DNA of 64,000 nucleotides, from positions 103,944 through 167,943 of the forward strand of contig NZ_LMUW01000054.1 in the NCBI RefSeq assembly GCF_009765735.1, given 5' to 3'. Positions within the stretch are counted from its first letter, which is position 1. Every line of letters begins with the position of its first letter. Of the stretch, positions 2,596 through 48,730 are shown piece by piece. The position numbers and the translations under genes are program-made. The notes beneath the pieces were generated by a model, which worked only from the letters and a program-made list of their open reading frames with translations, was not told where the DNA came from and ran no database searches. The DNA is from Xenophilus sp. L33 (GTDB lineage: Bacteria; Pseudomonadota; Gammaproteobacteria; Burkholderiales; Burkholderiaceae_C).

Positions 2596-4461
2596 ATGCT
2601 GGAAGCTATCGAAAGCGGTCGCGCCGAGGCGACCGTCGAGGAAGAACGCGCGCGTCCGATCGCCGCGAGGCCCGCACCGATCGTGTCGTCGAGGCCGATC
2701 CCGTTTGCCGCCACCCTGACCGCGGCGGCCGCGCTCGCGGCCTGCGGCGGCGGTGGCGGTGGCGGTTCCGGCGGCGTCGCGCTCAGTGGCACCACGCCGA
2801 ACAGCTCGGTCAACGCCAACAGCAACACCGGCGCCACCACCACCGTCGCCGCGGGCAGCCTGACGCCGCTGGGCACCACCGCGGCGGCCCAGACCTACGC
2901 CTACACCGCCCCGAAGAGCCCGGACGAGGCGGCGCGTTTCCTGCTGCAGGCCCAGTTCTCGGCCTCGGATGCGGACATCGCCGCGGTCACCGCCCAGGGC
3001 TACCTGCCCTGGCTCGGCGCCCAGGCCGACCTGCCGCAGACCCAGACCGGCTGGGCCTGGATCTCGTCGAAGACCTATAACACGGTCAACGTCGACGACA
3101 TGATCTGGAACCAGCTCATGACCTCGACCGACGGCTTCAGGAAGCGCGCGGCGCTGGCGCTGACCGAGATCTTCGTGGTGAGCGCCAACAACATCGGCTC
3201 CAACTGGCCCGACCTGATGATGGCCCAGTACTGGGACACGATGGTCGCCGGCGTCACCGGCACCTTCCGCCAGCTGCTCGAGAACGTGACCCTCAATCCG
3301 GCGATGGGCTACTTCCTCAACACCAAGGGCAACCAGCAGGCCAACGCGCAGGGCCGCCAGCCGGACGAGAACTACGCCCGCGAGGTGATGCAGCTGATGA
3401 CCATCGGGCTGTACATGCTGAACCCGGACGGCACCCCGATCAACGGTTCCGACGGCACGCCGCAGCCGACCTTCGCCCAGGCCGACGTCTCGAACCTGGC
3501 CAGCGTCTTCACCGGCTACGACCTCGACATCACCGACAACGAGCGCAACGGCTTCACGCCGCCCGGCGCCACCTACACCATCGAGAGCAACGCCTGGACC
3601 CAGCGCCCGATGGCGCTGAACCCGGTCTACCACTCGCGCACCGCCGCCACCTTCCTCGGCGCCACGGTGCCGGCCAATGCCACCGGCCCCGACTCGCTGA
3701 AGATCGCGCTCGACACGCTGGCCAACCATCCGAACGTCGGCCCGTTCATCGGCAAGCAGCTGATCCAGCGGCTGGTGACCAGCAACCCGAGCGCGGCCTA
3801 CGTGGCGCGGATCTCGGCGGTCTTCGCCAACAACGGCGCCGGCGTGCGCGGCGACATGAAGAGCGTCTTCGCCGCGATCCTGCTCGACAACGAGGCCCGC
3901 AGCCCGGCCGGCCTGACCGACAACACCTACGGCCGTCTGCGCGAGCCGATGCTGCGCTACGCCCAATGGGCGCGCACCTTCGGCGGCACCTCGACCACCG
4001 GCAACTGGAAGATCGGCGACCTGTCTTCCACCACCTACGGGCTGGGGCAGAGCCCGCTGCGCTCGCCCTCGGTGTTCAACTTCTTCGCGCCCGGCTACGT
4101 GCCGCCCTCGACCGCGATCGCCGCCGCCAAGCTGCTGGCGCCCGAGTTCCAGCTGGTCGACGAGACCACCGTCGGCGGCTACCTCAACTTCGTCCAGGGC
4201 CAGCTGCCGATCAACACCAAGGACGTCAACGGCACCTACGCCAACGAGCTGGCGCTGGTGCTCGACCCGGTCTCGCTGGTCGCCCGGCTGAACCTGATGC
4301 TCACCGGCAACCAGCTGTCGGCCGACGTGGTCAGCCTCATCACCACCGCGCTCAACACGCCGGCGGTGACTTCCACCAGCACCACCGCGGTGAAGATGAA
4401 CCGGGTCTATGCGGCGATCCTGATGGTGCTGGCCGCGCCCTCCTACCTGATCCAGAAATAA
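2596..4461 (+). CDS. DUF1800 domain protein, probable exported lipoprotein
   Basis: The 621-residue protein belongs to the DUF1800 family, which has no established biochemical role and is usually encoded beside a DUF1501 protein, as here. Family-like segments include PDENYAREVMQLMTIGL (about residues 255-271), which contains the characteristic NYAREVMQL stretch, and RAALALTEIFVVS. A hydrophobic stretch ending ALAAC, followed by a seven-glycine tract, looks like a lipobox with Cys50. It is preceded by an unusually long 30-residue charged N-terminus, so a later true start is possible. The chosen ATG follows GAGGAGCGAGG. The DUF1501 gene starts 11 bases downstream. Confidence 0.85.
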   Translation: MLEAIESGRAEATVEEERARPIAARPAPIVSSRPIPFAATLTAAAALAACGGGGGGGSGGVALSGTTPNSSVNANSNTGATTTVAAGSLTPLGTTAAAQTYAYTAPKSPDEAARFLLQAQFSASDADIAAVTAQGYLPWLGAQADLPQTQTGWAWISSKTYNTVNVDDMIWNQLMTSTDGFRKRAALALTEIFVVSANNIGSNWPDLMMAQYWDTMVAGVTGTFRQLLENVTLNPAMGYFLNTKGNQQANAQGRQPDENYAREVMQLMTIGLYMLNPDGTPINGSDGTPQPTFAQADVSNLASVFTGYDLDITDNERNGFTPPGATYTIESNAWTQRPMALNPVYHSRTAATFLGATVPANATGPDSLKIALDTLANHPNVGPFIGKQLIQRLVTSNPSAAYVARISAVFANNGAGVRGDMKSVFAAILLDNEARSPAGLTDNTYGRLREPMLRYAQWARTFGGTSTTGNWKIGDLSSTTYGLGQSPLRSPSVFNFFAPGYVPPSTAIAAAKLLAPEFQLVDETTVGGYLNFVQGQLPINTKDVNGTYANELALVLDPVSLVARLNLMLTGNQLSADVVSLITTALNTPAVTSTSTTAVKMNRVYAAILMVLAAPSYLIQK

Positions 4462-4472
4462 GGCGAGCCGCG

Positions 4473-5948
4473 ATGTACCTGATCGACCCCAAGGCCCAGA
4501 CGCGCCGCGCCTTCCTGCGCCGCTCCGGCCAGCTGGCCCTGACCGGCACCGCGCTGCCCTTCGCCCTCAACCTCGCCGCGATGGGCGAGGCCGCGGCCCA
4601 GGCGGCCGCGCCGGAGGACTACAAGGCGCTGGTCTGCGTCTTCCTCTACGGCGGCAACGACTATGCGAACACCGTCGTCACCTACGACCAGCCGAGCTAC
4701 GACGCCTACAACGCGATCCGGCTGCCCAGCACCTCGGGCGGCCTGGCGATCCCGCAGGCCAGCCTCGCCGCCACCTTGCTGACGCCGACCACCGCGCTGC
4801 CGAACGGCCGCCAGTACGCGCTGAACCCGACGATGACGCAGCTGGCGACGCTCTTCAACACCGACCAGAAGATGGCGGTGCAGCTGAACGTCGGCCCGCT
4901 GGTGGTGCCGCTGACGCGCTCGACCTACAACATGAACAGCAAGGCCTACCCGATCCCGCCGAAGCTGTTCTCGCACATCGACCAGCAGTCGACCTGGCAG
5001 TCGGACGCGCCGGCCGGCTCGACCGTCGGCTGGGGCGGCGAGATCGGCGACATCTCGCTGAACCAGAACACCAATTCGCTGTTCACCTGCATCTCGGTGG
5101 CCGGCAACGCGGTCTTCCTGTCGGGCGACACCGCACTGCAATACCAGGTCAGCACCGGCGGCGCGGTGCAGATCAACAGCCTCGCCAGCAGCCCTTTCGG
5201 CTCCAGCACGGTGAAGGCGGCGATGGTGCAGCTGGCGCAGCAGACCCGCACCCACGTGATGGAGAACGAATACAACCGGGTGACCAAGCGCTCGGTCGAC
5301 GCGCAGGGCCAGGTCACGACCGCGATCGGCGCCTCGACCTTCACGCCCACCGATGCCTTCGGAAGCCTGAACACCGGCCTGGCGCAGCAGCTCAAGATGG
5401 TGGCGCGCATCATCCGCGGCCGCTCCACGCTTGGCGCCAAGCGGCAGGTGTTCTTCGTCTCGATGGGCGGCTTCGACCTGCACTCCGGCCTGATCGCCAA
5501 CCACGGCCCGCTGCTGCAGCAGCTGAGCGACGCGATGGCCGCCTTCTACCGGCAGACCGTCGCGCTCGGCATCTCGAACAACGTGACCGCCTTCACCGCG
5601 TCGGACTTCGGCCGCACCCTGGCCAGCAACGGCGACGGCGCCGACCACGGCTGGGGCAGCCATCACTTCGTGGTCGGCGGCGCGGTGCAGGGCAAGCAGA
5701 TCTACGGCACGCCGCAGGTGGTGAGCATCAACAACACCTCGACCCTGCCGGGCTACGACGGCCACGTCGGCCAGGGCCGGCTGATCCCGACCACTGCGGT
5801 CGACCAGTACGGCGCCACCCTGGCCAAGTGGTTCGGCGTGCCGGCGGGCAGCCTGCCGGGCATCCTGCCGAACCTGAAGAACTTCGGCGGCACCGACAGC
5901 AACGGCGTCGCCTACCCGCAGGACGTCGGCTTCATGGCGCCGGCCTGA
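4473..5948 (+). CDS. DUF1501 domain protein with Tat signal
   Basis: The 491-residue product starts with a twin-arginine-like signal (RRAFLRRSGQLALTG, then a hydrophobic stretch to AAAQAA), so it is expected to be exported folded. The rest matches the DUF1501 family, which is related to the alkaline-phosphatase/sulfatase fold. Family-like pieces are VFLYGGNDYANTVV near residue 55, SMGGFDLHSG near residue 330, and the C-terminal TASDFGRTLASNGDGADHGWG with candidate metal ligands Asp and His. It forms an operon with the DUF1800 gene 11 bases upstream. Substrate and function of this widespread pair are unknown. Its 3' end overlaps the convergent IclR gene by 17 bases. Confidence 0.85.
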   Translation: MYLIDPKAQTRRAFLRRSGQLALTGTALPFALNLAAMGEAAAQAAAPEDYKALVCVFLYGGNDYANTVVTYDQPSYDAYNAIRLPSTSGGLAIPQASLAATLLTPTTALPNGRQYALNPTMTQLATLFNTDQKMAVQLNVGPLVVPLTRSTYNMNSKAYPIPPKLFSHIDQQSTWQSDAPAGSTVGWGGEIGDISLNQNTNSLFTCISVAGNAVFLSGDTALQYQVSTGGAVQINSLASSPFGSSTVKAAMVQLAQQTRTHVMENEYNRVTKRSVDAQGQVTTAIGASTFTPTDAFGSLNTGLAQQLKMVARIIRGRSTLGAKRQVFFVSMGGFDLHSGLIANHGPLLQQLSDAMAAFYRQTVALGISNNVTAFTASDFGRTLASNGDGADHGWGSHHFVVGGAVQGKQIYGTPQVVSINNTSTLPGYDGHVGQGRLIPTTAVDQYGATLAKWFGVPAGSLPGILPNLKNFGGTDSNGVAYPQDVGFMAPA

Positions 5949-6783
5949 GGGCTTGCGCGGCGGCGGGCGACCAGCCCAGCCGCTGCGACACCCGGTCGGC
6001 GGCGGCCTTCATCGTCGTCGCCAGTGCGCTGTCCCAGGCGGTGTCGAAGATCGCGGCCGGCCCGATCGCGGTCAGCGCCAGCACGATCGCGCCGGTGTGG
6101 TCGAAGACCGGCGCCGACATCGCGTTCACGCCCGGCAGGATCTCGCCCTCGGAGCGGCTGAGGCCGTGCGCGCGGACCTCTTGCAACTGGGCCTCGAAGG
6201 CCTTCCAGCTCGGCAGCGGCCGCACCGGCAGCGTGCCGTGGCGTGAGGGTGTCGCGGCGGGCGCGCGGCGCTCGCGCTGGCGCTCCTCCTCCAGCAGCCG
6301 CTCGACCTCGGCCGGCGGCAGGTAGGCGCCGAAGAGCCGCCCCGAGGCGGTGTTGGTCAGCGAGAAGACCGTGCCGTGGCGCATGTTGACGTGCAGCGCC
6401 GACGGCGATTCGGCGATCCGCACGATGGTCGCGCCGCGGTCGCCCCAGACCGCGATCGCCATCGTGTGGCCGACCTCGGCCGCCAGTTCGCCGATCAGCG
6501 GCGTGGCGATGTGCACCGGGTCGGCCTGCTGCAGCGCGATCAGCCCCAGTTGCAAGGCCAGCGGTCCGAGCAGATAGTGGCCGCTGGTGCGATCCTGTTC
6601 GACCAGGCCGAGCCGGCCGAAGCTGACCATGTACGGATGGGCCTTGGCCGGCGACATCTCGGCCTCGCGCGCCAGGTCCTTGAGCGCCATCGGGCGGCCT
6701 TCGTGGACCAGCGCGCGCAGCAGCTGGCCGCCCACCTCGATGCTCTGGATGCCCCGCTGGGCGCTGTTTTGAGATTCGTTCAT
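5932..6783 (-). CDS. IclR-family transcriptional regulator
   Basis: The 283-residue protein starts at MNESQNSAQRG; an in-frame ATG at 6801 would add six residues. An N-terminal winged helix (QSIEVGGQLLRALVHEGRPM, then LAREAEMSPAKAHPYM) is followed by an IclR effector domain with GHTMAIAVWGDRGATIVRI and NTASGRLFGAYLPP. The gene is divergent from the MBL/mhaAB/hmgA/fahA operon, so it is probably that operon's regulator with a phenylacetate-derived aromatic acid as ligand (inference). Two perfect 7-base-arm inverted repeats sit just upstream of its start. Confidence 0.9.
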   Translation of the reverse strand: MNESQNSAQRGIQSIEVGGQLLRALVHEGRPMALKDLAREAEMSPAKAHPYMVSFGRLGLVEQDRTSGHYLLGPLALQLGLIALQQADPVHIATPLIGELAAEVGHTMAIAVWGDRGATIVRIAESPSALHVNMRHGTVFSLTNTASGRLFGAYLPPAEVERLLEEERQRERRAPAATPSRHGTLPVRPLPSWKAFEAQLQEVRAHGLSRSEGEILPGVNAMSAPVFDHTGAIVLALTAIGPAAIFDTAWDSALATTMKAAADRVSQRLGWSPAAAQALRPAP

Positions 6784-6808
6784 GCAGAAGGCATTAGACA
6801 TTAACTGA

Positions 6809-6829
6809 TCGAGGATTTACACTCCTCGA
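6809..6829. promoter_or_regulatory. Candidate IclR operator 1
   Basis: TCGAGGA (6809-6815), a 7-base spacer, then TCCTCGA (6823-6829) form a perfect inverted repeat in the divergent promoter region. Its geometry is identical to the neighbouring site at 6828-6848. Confidence 0.6.
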
Positions 6830-6848
6830 ATTCGTCCCACGCGAATTC
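6828..6848. promoter_or_regulatory. Candidate IclR operator 2
   Basis: GAATTCG (6828-6834), a 7-base spacer and CGAATTC (6842-6848) form a second perfect inverted repeat with the same 7-7-7 geometry as the first, overlapping it by two bases. Together they could give cooperative binding of a tetrameric IclR-type regulator controlling both directions. Confidence 0.6.
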
Positions 6849-6880
6849 ATTCATCTTAGTCAAACTGCAGGAGACCCGCG

Positions 6881-7840
6881 ATGACCGCCACCAAGAAATT
6901 CGCCAGCCAGGCCGACCTCGAAGAAAAGAAGGTCACCTTCAGCCAGATTTCCGAACATGCCTGGGCCTACACCGCCGAGGGCGACCCCAACACCGGCATC
7001 GTCATCGGCGACGACGCGGTGCTGGTGGCCGACACGCAGGCCACGCCGGCCATGGCGGCCGACGTCATCCGCCGCATCCGCGAGGTGACCGACAAGCCGA
7101 TCAAGTACGTGGTGCTCACGCACTACCACGCGGTGCGCGTGCTCGGCGCCGCGGCCTACGAGCCCGAGCAGATCCTGGCCAGCCAGGACACCTACGACCT
7201 GATCGTCGAGCGCGGCGAGCAGGACAAGGCCAGCGAGATCGGCCGCTTCCCGCGTCTCTTCCAGAATGTCGAGACGGTCCCGCCGGGCATGACCTGGCCG
7301 ACGATGACCTTCACCGGCAAGATGACCGTCTGGCTCGGCAAGCTCGAAGTCCAGCTGCTGCAGCTGGGCCGCGGCCATACCAAGGGCGACACGGTCGTCT
7401 GGCTGCCGGGCGAGCAGACCCTGCTGAGCGGCGACCTGGTCGAGTTCGGCGCCACGCCCTACGCCGGCGACGCCTACTTCAAGGACTGGCCGCAGACGCT
7501 CGACAACGTCGCGGCACTGAAGCCCAAGGCGCTGGTGCCCGGCCGCGGCGCCGCGCTCACCACGCCGGCCGACGTGGCGCAGGGCCTCGCCGACACCCGC
7601 AACTTCATCGCCGACGTGTACGCCAACGTGCAGAAGGGCGTGGCCGCCGGCAAGGACCTCAACGCGGTCTACAAGGACACCTACGCCGCGCTCAAGCCCA
7701 AGTACGGCCACTGGGTCATCTTCGACCACTGCATGCCCTTCGACGTGACCCGCTGCTTCGACGAGGCCACCGAATATGTCGACCCCCGCATCTGGACCGC
7801 CGAGCGCGACATCGAGATGTGGAAGGCCCTGGAAACCTGA
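6881..7840 (+). CDS. MBL-fold metallo-hydrolase-like protein, altered metal motif
   Basis: The 319-residue protein has the metallo-beta-lactamase fold: VLVADTQATPA (strand and Asp51), TKGDTVVWLPGEQTLLSGDLVE and a late His. The signature HxHxDH reads HYHAVR at residues 81-86, so the Asp and third His that normally bind the second metal are replaced by Val and Arg. The second-half motif GRGHTKGD is present. This suggests one metal site or none. The gene is first in the homogentisate operon, 4 bases before mhaA, behind GGAG and an ATG. The substrate is unknown; hydrolysis of an aromatic ester or lactone feeding the pathway is only a guess. Confidence 0.85.
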   Translation: MTATKKFASQADLEEKKVTFSQISEHAWAYTAEGDPNTGIVIGDDAVLVADTQATPAMAADVIRRIREVTDKPIKYVVLTHYHAVRVLGAAAYEPEQILASQDTYDLIVERGEQDKASEIGRFPRLFQNVETVPPGMTWPTMTFTGKMTVWLGKLEVQLLQLGRGHTKGDTVVWLPGEQTLLSGDLVEFGATPYAGDAYFKDWPQTLDNVAALKPKALVPGRGAALTTPADVAQGLADTRNFIADVYANVQKGVAAGKDLNAVYKDTYAALKPKYGHWVIFDHCMPFDVTRCFDEATEYVDPRIWTAERDIEMWKALET

Positions 7841-7844
7841 AGCC

Positions 7845-9530
7845 ATGGCCGGGCTCGCATCGACGACCGGCGCGCCGGTCGACTACCAATCCCTGCGCTT
7901 CGAACACCGGCGCCATCCCGACCAGGACGCGGCGCCGCCGGCGCGCCATCCGGTGGCGATCGTCGGCGCCGGCCCGGTCGGGCTGGCACTGGCCATCGAC
8001 CTGGCCCAGCGCCAGGTGCCGGTGGTGCTGCTCGACAACGACTGCACGCTCTCGACCGGCTCGCGCGCGATCTGCTTCGCCAAGCGCACGCTGGAGGTCT
8101 TCGACCGGCTCGGCTGCGGCGACCGGATGGTGGCCAAGGGCGTGTCCTGGCACGTCGGCCGGGTGTTCTTCAAGGACGAGCAGGTCTACCGCTTCGACCT
8201 CCTGCCCGAGGCCGGCCACGAGCGGCCGGCCTTCATCAACCTGCAGCAGTACTACGTCGAGGGCTACCTGCTGGAGCGCGCCGCCGAGCTGCCGCTGATC
8301 GACCTGCGCTGGCACAGCCAGGTGACGGGCATCGCGCAGCACGCCGACCACGCGCTGCTCACCATCGAGACGCCCGACGGCCCCTACACGCTGGCCGCCG
8401 ACTACGTCGCCGCCTGCGACGGCTCGCGCTCCAGCCTGCGCCAGCTGCTCGGCCAGGAAGCGCACGGCCGCGTGTTCCGCGACCGCTTCCTGATCGCCGA
8501 CGTCACGATGGACGCCGACCTGCCGACCGAGCGCCGCTTCTGGTTCGACCCGCCCTTCCATCCGAAGCAGAGCGTGCTGCTGCACAAGCAGGCCGACAAC
8601 ACCTGGCGGGTCGACTTCCAGCTCGGCTGGGACGCCGATCCGGTCGAGGAGCGCAAGCCCGAGAAGATCATCCCGCGGGTGCGCGCGCTGCTCGACAGCA
8701 TCGGCCACGAGAAGGTCAGCTTCGACATCGGCTGGGCCAGCGTCTACACCTTCGCCTGCCAGCGCATGGACCACTTCCGGCATGGCCGGGTGCTGTTCGC
8801 CGGCGACTCGGCGCACGGCGTGTCGCCCTTCGGCGCGCGCGGCGCCAACTCCGGCGTGCAGGACGCCGACAACCTGGCCTGGAAGCTGGCCGCGGTGCTG
8901 CGTCGTGAGGCGCCCGACGCGCTGCTCGACAGCTACGCCGCCGAGCGCGAGGCCGCCGCCGACGAGAACATCCGTCACTCGACCCGCGCCACCGACTTCA
9001 TCACGCCCAAGAGCGAGGTGAGCCGGCTGTTCCGCGACGCGGTGCTGGAGTTGTCCAAGCGCCATCCCTTCGCCCGCGCGCTGGTCAACAGCGGGCGCCT
9101 GTCGGTGCCCAGCACCCTGCACGACTCGCCGCTCAACACGCCGGACGTCGATGCCTTCGAAGGCCCGATGGTGCCCGGCGCGGCCGCCGCCGATGCGCCG
9201 GTGGTCGGCGCCGGCGGCGGCGAGAGCTGGCTGCTGCGCGCCACCAGCGCGGCGCCCGGCGAGGCCGTGACCCGCTTCACCGCGCTGGTCTTCGGTTCCG
9301 GTGAGGCAGCACGGCGCAGCCTGGCCGCGCTGGCCGAGGCCGACCTGCCGCTGCACGTGGTCAAGGTGGCGGCGAGCAGCGACGCCGCCGGCCTGGCGGC
9401 CAAGCGCTACGACGCGCGGGACGGCACCGTCTACCTGCTGCGGCCGGACCAGCACGTGTGCGCCCGCTGGCGGCAGCCGACGCCGCTGGCGGTGCGCGCC
9501 GCCCGCGACCGCGCGATGGGCAAGCCCTGA
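7845..9530 (+). CDS. mhaA: FAD-dependent aromatic monooxygenase, MhaA-like
   Basis: The 561-residue class A flavoprotein hydroxylase has the NAD(P)H/FAD Rossmann motif VAIVGAGPVGLALAIDLAQ near residue 38, the DG motif CDGSRSSLR, and the second FAD motif RVLFAGDSAHGVSPFGARG near residue 320. The family includes MhpA and the 3-hydroxyphenylacetate 6-hydroxylase MhaA of Pseudomonas putida U, which needs a small coupling protein, MhaB, and yields homogentisate. A 65-residue gene followed by hmgA matches that arrangement, which supports the MhaA assignment over MhpA. Substrate specificity is inferred from context only. ATG at 7845 was chosen because longer versions run into the upstream gene. Confidence 0.8.
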   Translation: MAGLASTTGAPVDYQSLRFEHRRHPDQDAAPPARHPVAIVGAGPVGLALAIDLAQRQVPVVLLDNDCTLSTGSRAICFAKRTLEVFDRLGCGDRMVAKGVSWHVGRVFFKDEQVYRFDLLPEAGHERPAFINLQQYYVEGYLLERAAELPLIDLRWHSQVTGIAQHADHALLTIETPDGPYTLAADYVAACDGSRSSLRQLLGQEAHGRVFRDRFLIADVTMDADLPTERRFWFDPPFHPKQSVLLHKQADNTWRVDFQLGWDADPVEERKPEKIIPRVRALLDSIGHEKVSFDIGWASVYTFACQRMDHFRHGRVLFAGDSAHGVSPFGARGANSGVQDADNLAWKLAAVLRREAPDALLDSYAAEREAAADENIRHSTRATDFITPKSEVSRLFRDAVLELSKRHPFARALVNSGRLSVPSTLHDSPLNTPDVDAFEGPMVPGAAAADAPVVGAGGGESWLLRATSAAPGEAVTRFTALVFGSGEAARRSLAALAEADLPLHVVKVAASSDAAGLAAKRYDARDGTVYLLRPDQHVCARWRQPTPLAVRAARDRAMGKP

Positions 9531-9549: not shown

Positions 9550-9747
9550 ATGGAGACAACGACACTCACCACCACCCCAAACCTGGAAGCGCCCGACGAC
9601 TTCTACGAGGCGCTGATCGAGGCCCACCAGGGCCTGTCCGGCGACGAGAGCCAGGCGCTGAACGCGCGCCTGGTGCTGCTGCTGGCCAACCACATCGGCT
9701 CGACCGCCGTGCTGCGCGAGGCCCTGGCCGCCGCGCGCGCGACCTGA
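9550..9747 (+). CDS. mhaB: DUF2783 small protein, probable MhaB-like coupling component
   Basis: The 65-residue protein reads [15 protein letters not shown], then [13 protein letters not shown] and [11 protein letters not shown]. This is a helical DUF2783-type protein without cofactor motifs. It lies 19 bases after the flavin monooxygenase and 23 bases before hmgA, behind AAGGAG. In P. putida U a protein of about this size (MhaB) is required for 3-hydroxyphenylacetate 6-hydroxylase activity. The position and size match; equivalence is inferred. Confidence 0.75.
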
Positions 9748-9770: not shown

Positions 9771-11078
9771 ATGACGACGAACGCCACCGCCGACGAGCGC
9801 CGCTACCAGAGCGGCTTCGGCAACGAATACGCCACCGAGGCGGTCCCTGGCGCGCTGCCGCAGGGCCGCAACAGCCCGCAGCAGGCGCCGCTCAAGCTCT
9901 ACGCCGAGCAGCTCTCGGGCACCGCCTTCACCGCGCCGCGGCGCGACAACCGGCGCAGCTGGCTGTATCGCCGGCAGCCCTCGGTGGTGGCCGGCCGCTA
10001 CAAGCCCTATGCCCAGCCGCACTGGAAGACCGGCGCCGACCGCGAGATCGCGCTGCCGCCCGAGCCGCTGCGCTGGGCGCCGATCCCGCTGGACGACGTC
10101 GACTGCGACTTCGTCGACGGCATGCGCACGCTGTGCGCCAACGGCGACGCCGAGGCCCAGCAGGGCGTGGCGGCGCATGTCTACACCGCCAGCCGCTCGA
10201 TGCAGCGCCGCGCCTTCGTCGACGCCGACGGCGAACTGCTGCTGGTGCCGCAGCAGGGCCGGCTGGTGCTGACCACCGAGATGGGCGTGCTCGACGTCGC
10301 GCCGGGCGAGATCGCGCTGGTGCCGCGCGGCGTGGTCTTCAAGATCGACCTGCCGGACGGCATATCGCGCGGCTATGTCTGCGAGAACTACGGCGCGCAG
10401 TTCCGGCTGCCCGAGCTGGGCCCGATCGGCTCCAACGGCCTGGCCAACGCACGCGACTTCCAGGCGCCGGTGGCGGCCTTCGAGGACGGCACCGTGCCCT
10501 ACGAGCTGGTCAAGAAGTCGAGCGGCCGCCTGTGGTCGGCGCCGACCAGCCATTCGCCCTTCAACGTGGTGGCGTGGCACGGCAACCTCGCGCCGGTGAA
10601 GTACGACACGGCGCACTTCATGACCATCGGGTCGATCAGCTTCGACCATCCGGACCCGTCGATCTTCACCGTGCTGACCTCGCCCTCGGACACGCCCGGC
10701 ACCGCCAACTGCGACTTCGTCATCTTCCCGCCGCGCTGGCTGGTGATGGAAGACACCTTCCGTCCGCCCTGGTACCACCGCAACCTGATGAGCGAATTCA
10801 TGGGCCTGGTCCACGGCCAGTACGACGCCAAGCCGGGCGGCTTCAAGCCCGGCGGCGCCAGCCTGCACAACTGCATGGTGCCGCACGGCCCCGACGAGGA
10901 AGCCTTCGACAAGGCCAGCCACGCGCCGCTCGCACCGCAGAAGCTCGACCACACGCTGGCCTTCATGTTCGAGAGCCGCTTCCGATTCGTGCCGACCGAC
11001 TACGCGCTGCAGAGCCCGGCGCTGGACAACGACTACGCCGACTGCTGGGCCGGCCTCAAGGACCAATTCAAGCCATGA
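9771..11078 (+). CDS. hmgA: Homogentisate 1,2-dioxygenase
   Basis: The 435-residue product is the Fe(II) dioxygenase that opens homogentisate to maleylacetoacetate. It begins with [19 protein letters not shown], the near-invariant N-terminal motif. The iron-binding region [14 protein letters not shown] (His and Glu ligands) lies near residues 325-340, and [15 protein letters not shown] follows. The length matches the family (about 430-445). The stop overlaps the fahA start as ATGA (11075-11078), so the two are translationally coupled. Confidence 0.97.
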
Positions 11079-12361
11079 CATCCATCCAATCCGTTGACAG
11101 CACCCACGACCCGAAGCTGCGCAGCTGGGTCGATTCCGCCAACGACACGGGCTGCGACTTCCCGATCCAGAACCTGCCCTTCGGCACCTTCCTGCGCCAG
11201 CCGCGGCCCGACCGGCGCGTGCTGCCCGCCATCGGCGTGGCCATCGGCGACAGCATCCTCGACCTGCGCATGGCCCGGCTGATCGACACCGACGACATGA
11301 ACGAGCTGATCGCCGCGACACCCGAGGAGCGTGTGGCGCTGCGCCGCGCGATCTCCGAAGGCCTGGCCGAAGGCAGCGACAAGCAGGCAGCCTGGCAGGG
11401 CGCGCTGGTGCGCCAGGACGCGGTCACGATGCAGCTGCCCTGCCGCATCGGCGACTACACCGACTTCTACACCGGCATCCATCACGCGACCACGGTCGGC
11501 AAGCTCTTCCGCCCCGACCAGCCGCTGATGCCCAACTACAAGTGGGTGCCGATCGGCTACCACGGCCGGGCGTCGTCGATCGGGGTCAGCGGGCAGCGCT
11601 TCAAGCGGCCGCAGGGGCAGACCAAGGCGCCGGATGCCGCCGAGCCCGGCTTCGGCCCGTCGAAGCGCCTCGACTACGAGCTGGAACTGGGCTTCGTGAT
11701 CGGCCGCGGCAATGTGCTCGGCGAGCCGATCGCGATCGGCGAGGCCGAGTCGCACCTCTTCGGCGTCACGCTGCTCAACGACTGGTCGGCGCGCGACATC
11801 CAGGCCTGGGAATACCAGCCGCTCGGCCCCTTCCTGGCGAAGAACTTCGCCAGCACGCTGTCGCCCTGGATCGTCACCATGGAAGCGCTGGCGCCCTTCC
11901 GCGCCGCCTTCGAGCGCGCCGCCGGCGAGCCGCAGCCGCTGCCCTACCTGGACGGCGCCGCCAACCGCGAGGCCGGCGCGCTCGACATCACGCTCGAGGT
12001 CTGGCTGCAGACCGAAAAGATGCGCGCCGACGGCCAGCCCGCGGTGCGCCTCTCGCGCGGCAACAGCGCCCAGGCCGCTTACTGGACCGCGGCGCAGCTG
12101 GTCGCGCACCACACGGTCAACGGCTGCAACCTGCAGCCGGGCGACCTGCTCGGCTCCGGCACCTTGTCGGGCCCGAAGCCCGACGAGGCCGGCTCGCTGC
12201 TGGAGCTCACCCTCGGCGGCAAGAACCCGATCAGCCTGCCCAACGGCGAACGCCGCACCTTCCTGGAAGACGGCGACACCTTGAGCCTGCGCGGCTTCTG
12301 CGAGCGCGCGGGGGCGGTGCGGATCGGGTTGGGGGAAGTGAGCGGGACGGTGGTCGGCTGA
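11075..12361 (+). CDS. fahA: Fumarylacetoacetase
   Basis: The 428-residue protein hydrolyses fumarylacetoacetate to fumarate and acetoacetate, the last homogentisate-pathway step. The catalytic/metal region [20 protein letters not shown] is near residues 127-146, followed by [10 protein letters not shown] and [21 protein letters not shown]-terminal GSGTLSGP loop is also present. The start overlaps the hmgA stop. The intervening maleylacetoacetate isomerase (maiA/hmgC) is not in this window and must be elsewhere or replaced. Confidence 0.97.
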
Positions 12362-47743: not shown

Positions 47744-48730
47744 ATGATTCCGTTCTCGATCCTCGATCTGTCGCCGATCACCGAAGGCAGCGACGCCGCC
47801 CAGTCCTTCCGCAATTCGCTCTCGCTGGCCCAGCATGGCGAGAAACTGGGCTACCGCCGCTACTGGCTGGCCGAGCACCACGGCATGCCCGGCATCGCCA
47901 GCGCCGCCACCGCGGTCCTGCTCTCGCACATCGGCGCCGGCACTTCCACCATCCGCATCGGGGCCGGGGGCGTGATGCTACCCAATCATTCCCCGCTGGT
48001 GATCGCCGAGCAGTTCGGCACCCTCGAATCGCTCTATCCGGGCCGCATCGACCTCGGGCTCGGCCGCGCCCCCGGCTCCGACCAGCGCACCGCCCATGCG
48101 CTCCGGCGCGACCTGCAGTCCGACGCCGACCGCTTCCCGCAGGACGTGATCGAACTGATGGACTTCATGTCGAAGGAGCCGCGCCAGGCGGTGCGCGCGG
48201 TGCCCGGCATCGGCCTGGAAGTGCCCGTCTGGATCCTCGGCTCCAGCACCTTCGGCGCCCAGCTGGCGGCGCACCTGGGGCTGCCCTACGCCTTCGCCTC
48301 GCATTTCGCGCCGCAGCAGCTGCTGCAGGCGATCCACATCTACCGCGAGACCTTCAAGCCTTCGGCGCAGCTGGCCAAGCCCTACGTGATGCTGGGCTTC
48401 AACGTCTTCGCCGCCGACACCGACAAGGAAGCCGCCTTCCGCGCCACCTCCTGGCAGCAGGCCTTCGTCAACCTGCGCAGCGGCCGGCCGGGCCGGCTGC
48501 CGCCGCCGGTCGAGAACTACCGCGACAAGGTCGGTCCGGCCGAGCATGCGCTGCTCGACTCGGTGCTTTCGTGCTCGGCGGTCGGTTCGCGCGAGACGGT
48601 GCGCGCCGGTATCGAGGCCTTCGTCGAGCGCACCGGCGCCGACGAACTGATGATCACCTCGCAGGTCTTCGACCATGCGGCGCGGCTGCGTTCCTACGAG
48701 ATCCTGGCCGAGATCAACATGGCGTCGTAG
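47744..48730 (+). CDS. LLM-class flavin-dependent oxidoreductase
   Basis: The 328-residue luciferase-like protein reads [78 protein letters not shown], as in the YhbW/alkanal-monooxygenase-like group. It probably uses FMNH2; its substrate is unknown. The ATG is divergent from the phospholipase-D-like gene at 80 bases. A G+C-rich hairpin follows the stop. Confidence 0.92.

Follow-up and report, generated by a model that had tools for sequence, protein, structure and literature searches.

The window (the whole 64-kb stretch of DNA that was analysed) carries two perfect inverted repeats between an IclR-family regulator gene (iclR) and a divergent homogentisate operon. We conclude that the second repeat (palindrome 2) very likely provides the upstream site of a tandem operator bound by the divergently encoded IclR protein, itself a likely HmgR-like repressor, and that the first repeat (palindrome 1) was made by chance or mutation. 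Conservation settles the question: the core of the second repeat is kept in related promoters, whereas the first repeat is not.

The locus comprises the following genes.

5932-6801, minus strand: IclR-family regulator gene (Pfam HTH_IclR 44.2 bits, cut-off 22; IclR_C 73.8 bits, cut-off 24)
6881-7840, plus strand: MBL-fold protein, first operon gene, 319 aa (Pfam Lactamase_B 45.8 bits, cut-off 22.7)
7845-9530, plus strand: mhaA-like FAD monooxygenase, 561 aa (NCBIfam NF006002 856 bits, cut-off 416)
9550-9747, plus strand: mhaB-like small protein, DUF2783, 65 aa (Pfam PF10932 106.6 bits on 9562-9747)
9771-11078, plus strand: hmgA, homogentisate 1,2-dioxygenase (TIGR01015 660 bits, cut-off 511)
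11078-12361, plus strand: fahA, fumarylacetoacetase (TIGR01266 492 bits, cut-off 375)

The regulator belongs to the IclR family, as HTH_IclR and IclR_C both scored above their curated cut-offs. It fell below the cut-off of the PcaR/PcaU/PobR subfamily model (TIGR02431; 79.5 bits vs 284.75). Two in-frame ATGs are present in iclR, giving a product of 289 aa from 6801 or 283 aa from 6783. The equivalent of the 6801 ATG meets a stop after 9 codons in three related loci (L003, L006, and L007), so the start called at 6801 may be wrong, and 6783 is the better-supported start. A DUF1800 and DUF1501 gene pair is located at 2596-5948, on the opposite side of iclR.

The MBL-fold protein carries THYHAVR at the place of the metal motif, which is canonically HxHxDH. 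The longer stretch THYHAVRVLG was retained in 63 of 67 tblastn matches and was absent in 4. By size and setting, the monooxygenase and the DUF2783 protein, whose start at 9550 was taken from the translation, match mhaAB (3-hydroxyphenylacetate 6-hydroxylase). The mhaA-like protein is probably the large component of this enzyme. MhaA and MhaB of P. putida U have 566 and 60 aa, respectively (PMC3053370).

Checking the two inverted repeats described in an earlier note, we confirmed both as perfect 7-7-7 repeats at 6809-6829 and 6828-6848, between iclR and the homogentisate operon. Palindrome 1 consists of TCGAGGA (6809-6815), TTTACAC (6816-6822), and TCCTCGA (6823-6829), and palindrome 2 of GAATTCG (6828-6834), TCCCACG (6835-6841), and CGAATTC (6842-6848). 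Their reported two-base overlap was also borne out, with the centres at 6819 and 6838, 19 nt apart. That they fill the space between the divergent starts was an overstatement. The repeats cover 40 of the 79 bases from the upstream iclR ATG (6801) to the MBL ATG (6881), or 40 of 97 bases if the better-supported iclR start at 6783 is used.

Counting such repeats across the 64-kb window, we found 19 perfect 7-7-7 repeats, where 40 first-order Markov simulations averaged 13.2. Abutting pairs with equal loops (3-12) were observed twice against 0.5 in the simulations, so a pair of this kind is unremarkable across the window. Inside the 97-bp intergenic stretch such a pair is rarer: of 20,000 base shuffles, 3.5% contained one or more perfect 7-bp repeats and none an abutting equal-loop pair, although this local test was post hoc, framed once the pair had been noticed.

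The regulatory features that emerged from the comparison with related genomes are listed below.

6795-6800, plus strand: -35 box TAGACA of the operon promoter, within the conserved block ATTAGACAT (6793-6801)
6809-6829, no strand: palindrome 1, perfect in the window, not conserved, outside the proposed operator
6818-6823, plus strand: -10 box TACACT, 17-nt spacer after TAGACA, near-invariant in the alignment
6830-6846, no strand: putative operator site 1, ATTCGTCCCACGCGAAT, centre 6838, consensus about RTTCGYN5GCRAAY, the core of palindrome 2
6849-6865, no strand: putative operator site 2, ATTCATCTTAGTCAAAC, centre 6857, consensus about RTTYGCYTTAGACRAAY, outside the interval first reported
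6869-6874, plus strand: probable Shine-Dalgarno AGGAGA, with 26 or 27 of 27 promoters agreeing in columns 6870-6874

Two sets of promoters were used. The same-genus search covered 36 genomes besides the window's own, and 33 of them had a strong IclR ortholog; none was found in G012, G021, and G029 (completeness 62-88%). Among 30 loci, the window's own included, the gene faces MBL within the locus in 27. The alignment comprises 27 of the 30 loci L002-L031. The three left out (L026, L030, and L031) had no MBL hit and are present as longer versions (L036-L038), and L001 is a duplicate of L002. For the second set, a profile of 17 aligned orthologs was run against genome contigs, and the promoters of the best 80 of 174 relatives were taken, mostly from Variovorax, plus Xenophilus, Rhizobacter, Rhodoferax, Pseudacidovorax, and unplaced genomes. 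Counts from the two sets are not independent, as the sets overlap, and L097 and L120 are probably one strain.

Aligning the related promoters, as the earlier note had proposed, gave a divided answer: the core of palindrome 2 was conserved, while palindrome 1 was not conserved (75 relatives). The block 6830-6865, preceded by a short variable stretch, is conserved without gaps in 27/27 aligned IclR/MBL promoters, the window included. It consists of two 17-mers with a 2-base gap, the centres being 19 nt apart. Site 1 reads RTTCG...YRAAY in all 27 promoters, window included, and site 2 reads RTTYR...CRAAY, again in 27/27. Palindrome 2 amounts to site 1 together with flanking bases whose extra pairing in the window strain is fortuitous. 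Site 2 is degenerate in that strain, the whole 36-mer departing from the consensus at 3 positions. The idea that two dimers of one regulator sit on the same helix face therefore survives in altered form. Next to an IclR gene lies a conserved equal-length tandem, spaced 19 nt from centre to centre, which fits this idea, but palindrome 1 is not a member of the pair; the partner of palindrome 2 is the imperfect 17-mer downstream (6849-6865), outside the interval originally reported. The other suggestion, that two different regulators bind the two repeats, found no support.

The strict tandem RTTYRN7YRAAY-N2-RTTYRN7YRAAY was present in 65/80 ortholog promoters (best 80 of 174 relatives) and in 1/16,000 Markov-shuffled regions. 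By genus, this set of the best 80 of 174 gave 53/60 in Variovorax, 5/6 in Xenophilus, and 7/9 in others, and the tandem was not found in its Rhizobacter (0/3), Rhodoferax (0/1), and Pseudacidovorax (0/1) promoters. Some of the 15/80 promoters that miss the strict tandem in this set, such as L053, L058, L100, L112, L116, and L118, have recognisable mismatched sites, and L107 and L119 are also among the 15. Within the genus, 30/33 relatives hold the strict tandem, namely 26/26 aligned ones together with L033, L034, L037, and L038; L032 and L035 have one strict site each and a mismatched second site.

The strict pattern itself fixes the spacing, and we therefore ran a spacing-free scan for single 17-mers. 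At least two matches were found in 65/80 promoters (best 80 of 174), and all 65 hold a pair exactly 19 apart. The remaining matches were 15 nt after site 1 (9 cases), 15 nt before it (1), or 58 nt before it (6). Site 1 begins 6 bases past the -10 box in the window, and this gap varies from 5 to 8 among relatives. A pair fixed at 19 with a variable gap to the -10 box would be expected if the two dimers had to touch each other and not the polymerase site. The match 58 nt before site 1 is a third 17-mer, on the side of the iclR start; it reads ATTCGTTCATGGTGAAT and occurs in L092, L093, L095, L097, L103, and L120. Both sites, their spacing, their conservation, and their linkage to the genes are established in the sequence.

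Palindrome 1 behaved quite differently. Scoring its pairing in the window's register across the 75 promoters with a recognisable promoter (best 80 of 174 relatives), we found more than 4 of 7 positions paired in 0/75, the range being 0-4. The mean pairing was 1.88, compared to 2.10 when the arms of different relatives were combined (n=75). Few alignment columns vary as much as those in its arms (6811-6813 and 6826-6828), and the -10 box shares bases with the loop and reaches the first base of its right arm. Palindrome 1 was rejected as an operator on account of its lack of conservation in the 75 relatives and the overlap with the -10 box. Its symmetry, which spans spacer and -10 box, arose by chance or mutation and, as far as these sequences show, is particular to the window's strain.

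TAGACA-N17-TACACT (6795-6823) is the only promoter-like site in 6700-6900, with 9/12 matches where 0.1 such sites were expected (50 shuffles). The pattern TTAGACA-N16-18-TANANT was present in 75/80 ortholog promoters (best 80 of 174 relatives). By consensus and conservation, the site is a conserved sigma-70-type promoter. The block ATTAGACAT (6793-6801) is invariant in 27/27 aligned promoters, a degree of conservation that exceeds the needs of a -35 box, and it may also contribute to a promoter that faces iclR.

We asked whether the operator goes with the regulator or with the neighbouring genes. When six proteins were searched in the best 80 of 174 relatives, hmgA was the nearest divergent gene in 11/80 loci, and the strict tandem was present in 7 of these 11. 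In the same genus, the tandem was found in 3 of 4 loci where iclR faces hmgA (L033, L037, and L038). At L039, where an MBL protein 86% identical occurs in another gene setting, no site was found in the 300 bases before the MBL gene. The tandem is thus kept where iclR faces hmgA and absent at the L039 MBL gene, indicating that the operator is tied to the IclR ortholog and hmgA rather than to MBL. Three loci (L107, L119, and L036) have iclR beside hmgA and keep the ATTAGACA block, yet no operator sites were seen in them. Site and regulator can therefore separate, and these are the clearest results against a strict link. L036 (genome G035), L107, and L119 are possible natural loss-of-operator cases.

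Scanning the 64-kb window, we found one tandem (6830-6865) and one lone 17-mer match at 48013. Neither a further 13 kb of the contig (L041) nor the neighbourhoods of 4HPPD/maiA family matches (L123-L133) yielded a second tandem, and a BLAST search of 6770-6890 against the own genome returned the self-match only, although diverged copies may lie elsewhere in the genome. With no second tandem in the own-genome sequence examined, the link between regulator and site rests on one place per genome. The IclR paralogs at L039-L041 (42-52% identical) had no tandem in the stretch examined, and L039 has a lone ATTCGATATTATCGAAT. A further paralog, at L042, is 38% identical. The L041 paralog (4629-5453), encoded on this contig roughly 8 kb ahead of the window, is 46% identical, with KAHPYMVSF common to both proteins in the HTH region.

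Suvorova and Gelfand (2021) describe IclR proteins that bind as dimers or tetramers, and tandem sites 18-22 nt apart, mainly 19-21, predicted for 94/181 ortholog groups (PMC8222616). The candidate operator has this published geometry, two palindromic sites 19 nt apart in 65/80 ortholog promoters (best 80 of 174). The likeness to the WTT-11-AAW tandems extends to the 17-bp palindromes and to the position, as the centres lie 43 and 24 nt before the start codon and most published ones lie 20-80 nt before it (PMC8222616). WTT-11-AAW is the group 1 class of IclR motifs, with the inner consensus YCRYW3RYGR (PMC8222616). Site 1 in the window has such ends (ATT-N11-AAT), while site 2 ends in AAC. The ends seen in the 65 tandem promoters (A 60/G 5 and T 50/C 15) are broader than W. 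The inner consensus differs, since position 5 is G in 65/65 site 1 copies where that consensus, as given in the same article, has C. The CG steps are 7 apart here, compared to 5-6 in most motifs published there.

The closest functional analogue is HmgR of P. putida, which represses hmgABC with homogentisate as the anti-repressor (PMC5343134). The hmgR gene is divergent from the homogentisate genes (PMC3053370), and iclR here is likewise divergent from and adjacent to an operon with hmgA, or to hmgA itself. The HmgR motif ATTACGTTATTCGTAAT is 17 bp long with ATT-11-AAT ends, like the site here (PMC8222616, Table 1). Its half-site is, however, ATTACG, whereas here it is RTTYGC with a clear tandem; HmgR has an extra direct half-site (PMC8222616). 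The operons also differ, with MBL and mhaAB heading the one described here. GenR of Corynebacterium glutamicum (ATTCC-N7(5)-GGAAT) shares the 5-7-5, ATT...AAT layout (PMC8222616), but it has C at position 5 in place of G and belongs to another pathway and phylum. In Burkholderia xenovorans LB400, mhaAB-like genes also adjoin hmgA and are proposed to serve 3-hydroxyphenylacetate breakdown via homogentisate (PMC3053370). That study found no HmgR-like gene in LB400, unlike the present locus with its adjacent IclR gene.

We propose that the IclR-family protein would bind the tandem sites 6830-6846 and 6849-6865, whose centres are about two helical turns apart. Two dimers (a tetramer) on one helix face would block RNA polymerase at initiation or early elongation, and the protein would in this way repress MBL-mhaA-mhaB-hmgA-fahA. 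Homogentisate or 3-hydroxyphenylacetate would release the repression, as in an HmgR-like circuit. The identity of the binding protein, its binding as a tetramer, the transcription start, the repression, and the inducer are all what we infer. The sites start 6 bases past the -10 box and would thus cover roughly +1 to +36 of the operon transcript, counted from the predicted start. Bound protein at +1 to +36 would block initiation or early elongation, making repression the likely mode. The same position speaks against a PobR- or PcaU-like protein that owns the tandem sites but activates, or acts chiefly on its own gene, since sites downstream of the -10 box are in a blocking position for the operon; that the closest analogue, HmgR, is a repressor (PMC5343134) points the same way. 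The IclR family includes activators and its members generally regulate their own genes (PMC8222616), and ATTAGACAT could be part of an iclR-facing promoter; we regard activation or autoregulation as unlikely.

Little credit goes to two equal operators in palindromes 1 and 2, for one regulator or for two. Their perfect arms, shared 7-7-7 geometry, centres 19 apart, and the 0/20,000 local shuffles with an abutting equal-loop pair would favour it. But the arm TCGAGGA is unlike RTTYGC, palindrome 1 overlaps the -10 box, and its pairing exceeds 4/7 in 0/75 relatives with a mean (1.88) below the cross-pair expectation (2.10), leaving this explanation very improbable. We consider it just as improbable that the transcribed repeat 6828-6848 acts as an attenuator or a terminator-like leader hairpin. 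A terminator-like prediction was obtained at 6828-6848, and the predicted folds gave z-scores of -1.78 (6828-6880) and -2.46 (6805-6870). With G-U pairs allowed, 50, 65, 65, 33, 65, 63, 6, and 7 of 65 tandem promoters can form the eight successive pairs of site 1, so that 50 to 65 of them can form five of the six outer pairs. The fourth pair is, however, broken (mostly C-A) in 32/65 and the inner two in 59 and 58 of 65. The outer G of palindrome 2 (6828) and C 6827 sit in the most variable columns, few T follow the stem, and a hairpin leaves two equal sites at a fixed 19 nt unexplained. A short site 1 hairpin is possible in many relatives, but because the fourth pair is broken in about half of the 65 promoters, the hairpin is disfavoured against the tandem operator.

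The tandem design of IclR operators has already been described, and the homogentisate pathway is already known with an IclR repressor elsewhere. Our literature search found no naming of such an operator for the mhaAB-hmgA operon; the supplementary tables of PMC8222616, outside the search, may list one. For the mhaAB-hmgA operon as found in Variovorax and its relatives, the analysis offers a concrete 36-bp candidate operator and points to a likely regulator. It also carries the lesson that a perfect palindrome can be a false site and its imperfect neighbour the real one. A bolder reading, to which we give little weight, is that an unlisted IclR half-site class (RTTYGC, CG steps 7 apart, 17-2-17 at 19 nt) links the breakdown of 3-hydroxyphenylacetate to that of homogentisate across Variovorax, Xenophilus, and relatives; palindrome 1 would then be a recent, mutation-made palindrome over the -10 box that brings a strain-specific layer of control.

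A minor observation concerns the left arm of palindrome 1. L050 and L051 carry ATCCTCGAT at the equivalent position, and the window's ATCGAGGAT (6808-6816) matches its reverse complement exactly. The two differ by three adjacent changes, as a micro-inversion or a template switch would leave, and it is possible that such an event perfected palindrome 1.
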